In this document: positions 18,851-34,788 of the stretch, piece by piece
Layout: each line of letters starts with the position of its first letter
Position numbering within the stretch: the stretch's first letter is position 1
Assembly: GCA_947471505.1 (NCBI GenBank)
Contig: CANIWM010000067.1
Coordinates: forward strand, 1-34,788
Length of the DNA: 34,788 bases
Origin: Chthoniobacteraceae bacterium
Lineage (GTDB): Bacteria > Verrucomicrobiota > Verrucomicrobiia > Chthoniobacterales > Chthoniobacteraceae
Direction of reading: 5' to 3'
Translations under genes and position numbers: made by a program
Notes under the pieces: generated by a model
Seen by the model: the letters and a program-made list of their open reading frames with translations, nothing else
Database searches by the model: none
Told to the model about the DNA's origin: nothing

Positions 18851-19699
18851 ACCCTGTTTTGGCGGCGGCGGTGGCGGCGGTGGTTTCTGCGGAACGGGCA
18901 GACGCTTTACGTCGATGCCTTGCACGCCGATCCTCTCGACTCTTGGCGACGGTGGTGGTGGTGGTGGTGGCGGTGGCGGGGCTTCGCCTGATGCTTGCCT
19001 ATCGCGCGGCGGCGGCGGCAATTTTCCTCCTGTGTTCGGCGCGAGTCGGCCTTCTTGGATTTTCCGTTCTTGCACGCGAACGGACTGCTCGACGCGTGGC
19101 GCAGAAGCAAGCGGCGCACGGAAGCCGCGCACGAGCATCGACGCCGAGACTTGTCGCGAAAGCTGGAAGTCCAGCACCGGACTGAGTTGAGCTCCCGGCA
19201 TCACGATCACGAGTTGTCCGGGGGCTAATGTGACGCTTTTTCCGTCCGGCAACGTCACGCTCCCCTTCCCCTCCAGCATCACGACTTTCATCGCGCCTGC
19301 TTTCGTGGCGGAGACGATAAGCGTGGTGCCGAGCACGGCGGCAGATGCTGCGCTGGTGCGGATGGTGCCACCGCCACGGCCTGCGGGTGAGTGGAAAAGG
19401 AGGGAGCCTTTTTCCAGCTCCATCGTCCGCGATTCCGGCTGGAAGGAGAACAGCGTGTTCGAGCCCACGCGCGTCACGGTCTGGTCTGCGGCGATGAGTT
19501 CGGCGCGGGAATTGATGCCAGTGCGCAAGACGTTGGGCGCGCGAAACTCCTCGCGCATCTGGGCGGCGTGCGCGGTGCGCGTGGCGCGCTCGATGACTCG
19601 CACGTCGTTGACGATCTCAGTGATTTGCGCGCGGTCGAGCGGGGCTGCGTGCGCGAGTCCCGCCGTGAAGATGCAGAGGGCGATGGTGTTGGTTTTCAT
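18830..19699 (-). CDS. Exported FecR-domain protein with polyproline tail
   Basis: A 289-residue protein with a signal peptide (MKTNTIALCIFTAGLAHA). Residues ~40-190 form a FecR domain (PF04773): NVLRTGINSRAELIAADQTV, LEKGSLLFHSPAG, TSAASAAVLGTTLIVS, and VMLEGKGSVTLPDGKSVTL followed by LAPGQLVIVMPG. The C-terminal ~100 residues are Pro/Arg-rich with two long proline runs (10 and 8 residues), encoded partly by a GGT-type triplet repeat as read on the plus strand. It lacks the cytoplasmic and membrane parts of true FecR sigma regulators and has no sigma-factor neighbour, so a role as a soluble or surface beta-protein is more likely than iron signalling. Such FecR-domain exported proteins are common in Verrucomicrobia. 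The ATG at 19699 was chosen for its signal peptide. Confidence 0.85.
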   Translation of the reverse strand: MKTNTIALCIFTAGLAHAAPLDRAQITEIVNDVRVIERATRTAHAAQMREEFRAPNVLRTGINSRAELIAADQTVTRVGSNTLFSFQPESRTMELEKGSLLFHSPAGRGGGTIRTSAASAAVLGTTLIVSATKAGAMKVVMLEGKGSVTLPDGKSVTLAPGQLVIVMPGAQLSPVLDFQLSRQVSASMLVRGFRAPLASAPRVEQSVRVQERKIQEGRLAPNTGGKLPPPPRDRQASGEAPPPPPPPPPPSPRVERIGVQGIDVKRLPVPQKPPPPPPPPKQGGNQKPR

Positions 19700-32785: not shown

Positions 32786-34639
32786 TCACGACTGGCGTAG
32801 CACGACAGCGCTCGCATTGATGCGCCCGCACTGCCGCATGACTTCGATCCCCTCTTGCGGGAACGGCCCCGCTTTTCGCTCGCCTTCGATGACCCACTCC
32901 TCCGCTGGAGTGACACTCGCGAGTTCCTCGCCGGTGAAGCCCAGCACCTCGAAAACGGGTACGGGTTCGGGGATTCCCTTCAGCCGCAGCTCGGCGAAAA
33001 GGCGCGCTTCCACTTTACCTTGGACGATGGCCCATGTGCGGGGAGAAAGGAGGATTCTCCCCGAAGGTGCCCACGACTCGATACGGGCGGCGAGGTTCAC
33101 TCCGCGTCCGATGACGGTGTAGTCGGTGAAGTCTTTCGAGCCGAAGTTGCCCACCGTCACGAATGCGGTGTTGATGCCCATGCCGACATGCAGTGCTTCT
33201 CGCCCTTCGGCGTGCCAGTGCGTGTTGAGCTTTTCGATTTCTCGCTGCATCTCCCACGCCATGCGGATGGCGCGGATGGGGTGATCGGGCTGCTCCACGG
33301 GCTCGCCGAAGAACACCATGATGGCGTCGCCGATGAACTTATCCAGCGTCCCGCCGTGCCGCTCCACAACTTCCGTCATCGCGGTGAAATACTGGTTGAG
33401 CACGAGTGTGACCTCGTCCGGGTCCATGCGCTCGGTCCACAGTGTGAAGCCACGCACGTCGGAGAAAAAGATCGTCAACTCACGGCGCTTGCTCTGCGTG
33501 GGCATTGCGCCACCGCCTTCGACGATGCGCTTCACCAGCGCGTTCGAGACGTAGCGGCTGAAGCGGTCCAGCAAACGCCCCCGGTCGGCCCGAACCATCG
33601 TCATCTGTAAGCCCAGCATCACCATCCCCGTGCAGCCCAGCCCGCCGAGGGTGGCGATGAACGGCAGCAGCCAATCCCCCGCCGCCGCACCGCACACCAC
33701 CAGCACCCAGCCCAGCGCCAGAGCAACGATGAGCGCCATATTTACCCACGGCTGGCTAAAGCAAAGAACCGCGCCAAACAGCACGCAAACCCCGACCAGC
33801 AAAAGCCCCTCCGCCCACGGCGGCAGGAACCGCAGATGCGCGCCGGAGAGGATATTGCTCACCACCGTCGCCTGCACCGCCACACCGGGGATGCGCCCGA
33901 TGGGAACGTTCACAATGTCCGCGTTCCCCGTGCTCACATTGCCGATGACGACGACGCGGTCTTTCAACGCAGCAAATACTTCGCCCCCGCCCGCGCTCAC
34001 CGCCGCGTAGAGGTCTGTGTATTGAAAAGATGGCGCGAACACCCCGAGGTCGCCCGCAAAGTTCACGCGATACTCGCACCGCTCATCCACCGGGATCCGG
34101 AGCGTGCCGTTCGGCGTATCCACCAGCGTCACCGCCACGCCCGGCACCACCTGCACTTGGTCCGGCTCCACATGCAGCGCCGCCAGCACCGTCTGCATCG
34201 CCAGCGAAGGATACAGCTTCCCGCCGTGGGCGAAAAAGAGCGGCACCTTCCGAATCATCCCATCGCCATCCGGCACCGCATTCACCGCGCCAAAGCTCGT
34301 CGGCAGAGCCGCAAACGGCGGCACGGGATTCCGCGCCTGCACAAAGTCAAAGCGCGACACCTCCGCACCATACCGCTGCCCTACCAAGAAATGCGCCCCC
34401 GGCCCACCTTCCGCCGCCTCATCGAAGTGATATGCCAGCGTCGTATTCTTGTGCGCCACAAACCCCGCGATGAGCTTCTCGTCCTGCACCGCATCCGCCG
34501 ACGGCTCGGTAAAAAGCACATCCAGCGTGCAATGCCGCGCCCCCGCCGTGTTCAAAATCGCCAGCACATCCGCATGGACCGCACGCGGAAACGGCCACCG
34601 CCCAAAAGTCGGCCCAACATCCCGGTCCCCGATCCCCAC
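32786..34639 (-). CDS. CHASE2-domain adenylate cyclase, 5' end probably lost
   Basis: Up to 617 residues from a GTG at 34639. Residues ~1-270 are a CHASE2 sensor domain (FGRWPFPRAVHADVLAIL, TLDVLFTEPS, SLAMQTVLAALHV, VVVIGNVSTG). Three hydrophobic helices follow (~280-360), then a class III cyclase domain. All catalytic parts are present: metal Asp in FFSDVRGFT (near residue 394) and in FIGDAIMVFFG (near 438), Lys in TLDKFIGD and Asp in FTDYTVIG as adenine-selecting residues, and Asn/Arg in VNLAARIE. It should make cAMP. CHASE2 proteins normally start with a membrane helix and ~20 or more residues before this point. Here the frame is closed by a TGA at 34658-34660 after a few unrelated codons, so the 5' end seems cut off. 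The other start codon candidates lie inside the CHASE2 domain. Confidence 0.85.
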   Translation of the reverse strand: MGIGDRDVGPTFGRWPFPRAVHADVLAILNTAGARHCTLDVLFTEPSADAVQDEKLIAGFVAHKNTTLAYHFDEAAEGGPGAHFLVGQRYGAEVSRFDFVQARNPVPPFAALPTSFGAVNAVPDGDGMIRKVPLFFAHGGKLYPSLAMQTVLAALHVEPDQVQVVPGVAVTLVDTPNGTLRIPVDERCEYRVNFAGDLGVFAPSFQYTDLYAAVSAGGGEVFAALKDRVVVIGNVSTGNADIVNVPIGRIPGVAVQATVVSNILSGAHLRFLPPWAEGLLLVGVCVLFGAVLCFSQPWVNMALIVALALGWVLVVCGAAAGDWLLPFIATLGGLGCTGMVMLGLQMTMVRADRGRLLDRFSRYVSNALVKRIVEGGGAMPTQSKRRELTIFFSDVRGFTLWTERMDPDEVTLVLNQYFTAMTEVVERHGGTLDKFIGDAIMVFFGEPVEQPDHPIRAIRMAWEMQREIEKLNTHWHAEGREALHVGMGINTAFVTVGNFGSKDFTDYTVIGRGVNLAARIESWAPSGRILLSPRTWAIVQGKVEARLFAELRLKGIPEPVPVFEVLGFTGEELASVTPAEEWVIEGERKAGPFPQEGIEVMRQCGRINASAVVLRQS

Positions 34640-34673
34640 CGGTAGAGTGCGAAGAGTTCAGCAAAAAGAAAGC

Positions 34674-34732
34674 GGGTCATGGTAAGGAAGGGAGCGATCA
34701 AGCAACCCAAACCTAAAAAACAACCATGACCC
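34674..34732. repeat. 10-bp inverted repeat overlapping the start of the right-edge gene
   Basis: GGGTCATGGT (34674-34683) and ACCATGACCC (34723-34732) are exact reverse complements with 39 bases between. The right arm contains the ATG of the partial gene at 34726. It may be an operator, an mRNA hairpin, or part of a mobile-element end. Confidence 0.5.
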
Positions 34733-34788
34733 ATAAAAAGAATAAGAAGACCGTGAGTGAACTCAAAGCAATAATTGGCCAGGACGAT
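34726..34788 (+). CDS. Partial gene at window edge, possible IS256-type transposase
   Basis: Only the first 21 codons are in the window: MTHKKNKKTVSELKAIIGQD and one more residue, open to the edge. A Lys-rich start followed by SELKAIIGQD resembles the opening of mutator/IS256-family transposases known from PVC genomes, but 21 residues cannot prove it. The position next to a truncated cyclase gene, with no match between the spacer and cyclase coding sequence beyond ~34645, supports a mobile element whose left end would lie near 34640-34680. No ribosome binding site is clear. Confidence 0.4.
   Translation, partial: MTHKKNKKTVSELKAIIGQDD

Follow-up and report, generated by a model that had tools for sequence, protein, structure and literature searches.

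Background

In the IS256 family of insertion sequences, target duplications of 9 bp also occur, and the motif TGTAAA is frequent but not required. For one described member, ISCth4, PMC7780238 gives 15 copies, most with 8-bp duplications, and presents subterminal TGTAAA as a conserved feature of IS256 members. Among nucleotide cyclases with a CHASE2 domain, most of those from Campylobacterota are clustered with a FecR-domain protein, according to the survey in PMC9239204. Here we describe a locus at which an IS256-type element has almost certainly jumped into a CHASE2 cyclase gene, duplicating 8 bp, splitting the gene into 56 and 617 codons and leaving a fragment that is most likely dead. Our literature searches returned no paper title on this element or this insertion.

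The stretch of DNA analyzed, called the window throughout, is the entire contig C67 (34,788 bp) of genome G000, an assembly of 6.07 Mb in 153 contigs that is 96.7% complete. The right edge of the window is thus the contig end, and it falls within a repeat. The features on which the analysis turns are the following.

32786 to 34639, minus strand: CHASE2 nucleotide-cyclase gene, 3' part, residues 57-673 of a 673-residue intact frame (Pfam; in-frame continuation on C130)
34633 to 34640, no strand assigned: 8-bp target-site copy TCCCCACC, with a second copy on G000:C130 right after the right end of the element
34641 to 34788, plus strand: left end of an IS256-type insertion sequence, running off the contig end (repeated ends; inverted repeat with the right end)
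34658 to 34660, minus strand: TGA within the element, closing the cyclase frame upstream of the break (sequence)
34726 to 34788, plus strand: start of the transposase gene, 21 codons up to the contig end that truncates it (sequence; G005:C62 has a PF00872 frame beginning at the same ATG)

Results and discussion

A cyclase gene in two parts

The minus strand from 32786 to 34639 codes for 617 residues. Pfam searches of this frame, including the short run inside the element, identified a CHASE2 domain (PF05226, E 1.3e-40) matching only from position 37 of the 257 in the profile, followed by a nearly complete Guanylate_cyc domain (PF00211, E 4.2e-23, profile positions 6-172 of 183). The sole NCBIfam match of the fragment was to a cyclase fusion family, far below the cut-off. 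Past the break the frame continues for 18 nucleotides to the TGA, 17 bases from the edge of the element.

The rest of the gene was found on contig C130. Joining the C67 and C130 flanks with one copy of the 8-bp sequence yields one open frame of 673 residues, which begins with MNHRLPLRTRLLVGLIVGVLAALVQLSGWVRPLEELNVDARLRWRPVGRVSEQVRLVGIGDRDVG from an ATG at C130:322-320. The C130 part supplies the first 56 residues, including an N-terminal hydrophobic stretch at about residues 9-30, and C67 supplies the other 617. The stretch at residues 9-30 is the membrane helix absent from the window fragment. Searched alone, the 56-residue part had no significant Pfam match (best E 0.35). As it stands on C130, the 5' part ends after 59 codons at a stop inside the right end of the element, and the insertion leaves a stop codon on either side of the break. 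The edge of the insertion, the duplication, the continuity of the frame across the empty site, the two stops and the repeated, near-uniform ends can all be read directly from the contigs; the 8-bp copy and the frame continuity argue for the link between C67 and C130.

These results bear out most of an earlier note on this DNA, made from its letters alone. It had pointed to the abrupt beginning of the CHASE2 similarity, to the TGA that closes the frame and to a missing membrane helix, and it had proposed an insertion near 34640 with the 5' end of the gene beyond it. Indeed, the proposed position is exact, since the target copy ends at 34640 and the element starts at 34641, with the TGA inside it. 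The note had also considered that close homologs might begin at the same point; against this, in all 12 aligned relatives at least 67 residues precede the break column, in frames taken from stop to stop, part of which may therefore be untranslated. Of 19 relative loci, 12 entered the alignment, and one of these 12, L032, fails to line up across the cyclase motifs.

The same data make it scarcely credible that the gene is a short CHASE2 form that naturally starts here and merely adjoins the element. Such a form could in principle start at the GTG at 34637-34639, the nearest in-frame start to the edge, yet no purine-rich ribosome site was seen by eye before this codon, the 5' part on C130 is in frame and carries an ATG and the membrane helix, and the stop-to-stop frames of the 12 relatives extend upstream of the break. 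The closest cyclase matches among 38 genomes, including its own, are about 30% identical, and we therefore count no intact orthologue at this site among them. When named genomes were scanned for the cyclase fragment, 24 pattern matches came up, none of which was confirmed as a relative.

Repeated ends and target duplications

Using window positions 33700-34788 as the query, we found 14 matching places in the same genome, and the 148 left-end bases, used alone as a query, likewise gave 14. As 40 of 126 candidates were scored in the first search, the counts are lower bounds. There are at least 13 left ends including that of the window, 93-148 bp long and 100% identical as far as each runs. All 13 lie at contig ends and share exactly the same boundary base, whereas the 40 bases to the left of the edge differ across all of them. 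Separately, an internal 47-bp piece of the left end, 98% identical and without the rest of the element, is present on C128 (L021 2500-2546, equal to G000:C128:6499-6545), where it forms the end of a 215-residue frame; the domain in that frame is a MobA-like NTP transferase (PF12804, E 8.2e-31). This piece is either the scar of an old insertion that now serves as a C-terminus or a captured end.

For the right end, the query was the 979-base 3' part of the copy in G005, a genus-mate of the organism of the window. Its matches in the window's genome are confined to its last 205 bases and define at least 14 right ends, each of them at the end of a contig; with 40 of 70 candidates scored, this too is a lower bound. 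The terminus is CTTGACGGACACTACC in 13 of the 14, and the copy on C101 lacks the last 8 bases. Those right ends that are whole fall into three classes of 6, 5 and 2 copies, distinguished by a single base and by a single C run. Together with the right end, the outermost left-end bases, GGTAGAGTGCGAAGAGTTCAGCAAAAAGAAAGCGGGTC, form an imperfect terminal inverted repeat, GGTAGAGTGCG-AAGAGTTCAGCAAAAAG... on the left against GGTAGTGTCCGTCAAGATTCAGCAAAAGG... on the right, with about 40 bp aligned with mismatches.

A search for right ends that resemble the first 16 left-end bases, allowing up to 3 mismatches, was rejected: it gave 53 matches forward and 54 in reverse, and a control pattern gave 49 and 58. 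Among the places listed, this 16-base search gave no contig-end group beyond the 13 exact left ends.

Comparison of the flanks of all 13 left ends with those of all 14 right ends gave a perfect 8-bp match for eight left ends: C67-C130 (TCCCCACC), C6-C85, C47-C102, C118-C113, C62-C44, C56-C125, C17-C92 and C90-C18. In none of the eight pairs does the match extend to 9 bp, and moving the comparison 1 to 399 bases off the element gave no match in 399 shifted controls, so the eight matches are not due to chance. Five left ends (C33, C74, C11, C139, C103) and six right ends (C101, C120, C87, C7, C75, C73) are unpaired, and a search among these for near-miss pairs, with at most one mismatch over 7-10 bp, found none. 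Either the partner contigs are missing from the assembly, or deletions have occurred beside the element. In the pair C17-C92 (L016, L086), the copy interrupts a long, repeat-rich frame, which spans at least 1126 residues once the site is joined and closes in what we take to be a PEP-type sorting tail.

The break is 148 bases away from a contig end, a kind of place prone to misassembly, and a chimeric end could in principle have fused an intact cyclase gene with a repeat that has nothing to do with it. The chance of such an artefact is negligible, given that the same boundary base recurs in all 13 left ends, that eight of them have 8-bp duplications, and that the 5' part on C130 begins at the exactly complementary point, beside a matching right end.

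The transposase

The window holds the first 21 codons of the transposase gene, a stretch for which NCBIfam found nothing. We searched 40 genomes of the same family, including its own, and six had a match to the element, those in G007, G008 and G011 being short or weakly similar only. On contig C62 of G005, the left end is conserved at 91% DNA identity, and the same ATG opens a 103-residue frame that matches Transposase_mut (PF00872, E 9.2e-26); stop codons follow this piece, and then a further 298 residues of PF00872 (E 3.9e-109). On contig C138 of G006, a cut copy has the left end at 97% identity and a 128-residue PF00872 match (E 1.1e-40) opened by a GTG slightly downstream of the ATG, which is out of frame through a one-base gap. 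The six top matches listed from a plasmid collection share 66-69% identity with the transposase; four are annotated as 'IS256 family transposase' and two are unannotated.

The interiors of multi-copy repeats are commonly missing from assemblies. PF00872 had no match in the window's own genome: the interior of the element is missing from this assembly. The transposase C-terminus and its stop lie in the right end. The transposase in the relatives' copies is of the PF00872 type, and the element in the window, seen by its ends alone, would share that type. The earlier note had called the plus-strand frame from 34726 IS256-transposase-like, which the shared ATG in G005 supports, and had expected terminal inverted repeats, here present in imperfect form, and a target duplication of 8-9 bp, here 8 bp and perfect between C67 and C130. 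Its concern that the sequence to the right might lack a transposase is answered by the right ends; of the full transposase it anticipated, the relatives' copies show the named type, cut or split by stop codons, and the interior is absent from the window's own assembly.

Both G005 copies, on C62 (L052, about 990-1055) and on C173 (L057), share an insert of about 60 bp, as judged by eye, in the transposase gene. It contains two in-frame TAG codons and is without counterpart in the G006 copy; across five genomes, a 40-base pattern taken from it occurred nowhere but at these two places. With this insert the G005 copy measures 1,423 bp, and the element in the window would be about 1.3-1.4 kb long. 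The G005 copies are perhaps non-autonomous and have multiplied using a transposase from elsewhere.

Movement of the element

By analogy with its family, the element would transpose by copy-out/paste-in through a circle, using a DDE transposase, as for ISCth4. Its insertion in the cyclase gene, with duplication of 8 bp of target, TCCCCACC, has almost certainly parted the initial 56 codons, which include those for the N-terminal helix, from the remaining 617. In line with a circular intermediate, a -35-like TTGACG lies in the right end, 9 nucleotides from the edge, and a -10-like TAGAGT in the left end, 2 nucleotides from the edge, such that they are 11 nucleotides plus the junction apart; a 6-bp circle junction would give a 17-bp spacing, by consensus fit only.

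The motif TGTAAA was absent from the left end in the window and from three of the 14 right ends, one from each class of whole right end. It was also absent, with one mismatch allowed, from the first 60 bases of the same ends and of the G005 copy. As such, transposase type, repeats and duplication agree with the label 'IS256-type', and TGTAAA does not. The element has probably been active recently, and at least a dozen copies of it are present here. G005 is a metagenome bin; if the genome of the window is one as well, the insertion could be present in just part of the population.

Consequences for the cyclase

On C130, the cyclase ATG lies 9 nucleotides behind a FecR-domain gene (PF04773, E 1.7e-13), which is itself preceded by a second one (E 5e-09), and both are on the cyclase strand. 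Given this arrangement, the insertion most likely broke up a signaling unit of operon-like form, FecR-FecR-cyclase. In seven of 12 relatives' genomes (G002, G003, G004, G008, G014, G016, G035), the best CHASE2-type match has a FecR match on the opposite strand no more than 5 kb away, and in G015 the distance is about 6 kb. Among the matches listed, G009, G025, G028 and G037 had no FecR on the contig of the best CHASE2-type match. A further FecR-domain match is present in the window at 19265-19531 on the minus strand.

Loss of cyclase function is the most likely outcome. The window fragment most likely yields no active protein: the scan for promoters showed none facing it, no purine-rich ribosome site was visible by eye before the GTG, and the element stands between it and the upstream FecR genes. 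The earlier note had foreseen a cyclase lacking its N-terminal anchor with catalytic parts intact. The N-terminal helix is indeed lost, but three hydrophobic stretches remain, with peaks at residues 332-350 and 357-375 and a weaker one at 380-398 of the intact frame (hydropathy), so that a product would be mis-oriented and not anchor-free: its CHASE2 part would be left unexported, on the wrong side of the membrane.

Were the 617-residue fragment still translated, as a truncated, deregulated cyclase free of CHASE2 and FecR control, the insertion would rewire cyclic-nucleotide signaling in this strain and not remove it. The nearly complete Guanylate_cyc match and the three remaining hydrophobic stretches fit such a protein, which we nonetheless regard as very unlikely. 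A scan of 34400-34788 found no promoter-like site, a weak test with 0.1 expected by chance; the TTGACG sits in the other end of the element and faces outward onto C130, away from the fragment; and the fragment has no clear start site, in addition to the probable misplacement of its CHASE2 part. Silence of the fragment thus remains the preferred reading, and annotators should not take the truncated cyclase on C67 for a naturally short form.

Comparison with known systems

The IS256 family, its target duplications and gene disruptions of this kind are all well known; the event is an ordinary one and changes no general view. It is a clean example of a disruption read from contig ends alone with the element itself unassembled, with its ends, its target duplications and the lost gene part all recoverable.

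Like ISCth4 and IS256, the element would have a Mutator-type transposase, as seen in the relatives' copies, and it has imperfect terminal inverted repeats and at least a dozen genomic copies. Its target duplications are of 8 bp, as in ISCth4, and the -35-like and -10-like sequences, by consensus fit, would lie across a circle junction much as described for ISCth4 (PMC7780238). In contrast to the IS256 members as described there, its left end in the window and the three right ends covered show no subterminal TGTAAA.

The interrupted gene resembles the CHASE2 class III nucleotide cyclases in its predicted order of N-terminal helix, CHASE2, further hydrophobic stretches and Guanylate_cyc, and would encode a cyclase on that basis. 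The adjoining FecR genes recall the CHASE2 cyclases of Campylobacterota (PMC9239204). In contrast to seven of the 12 relatives' genomes, where FecR is on the opposite strand, the FecR genes here precede the cyclase on the same strand, and unlike other CHASE2 cyclases next to FecR genes, this one is interrupted.
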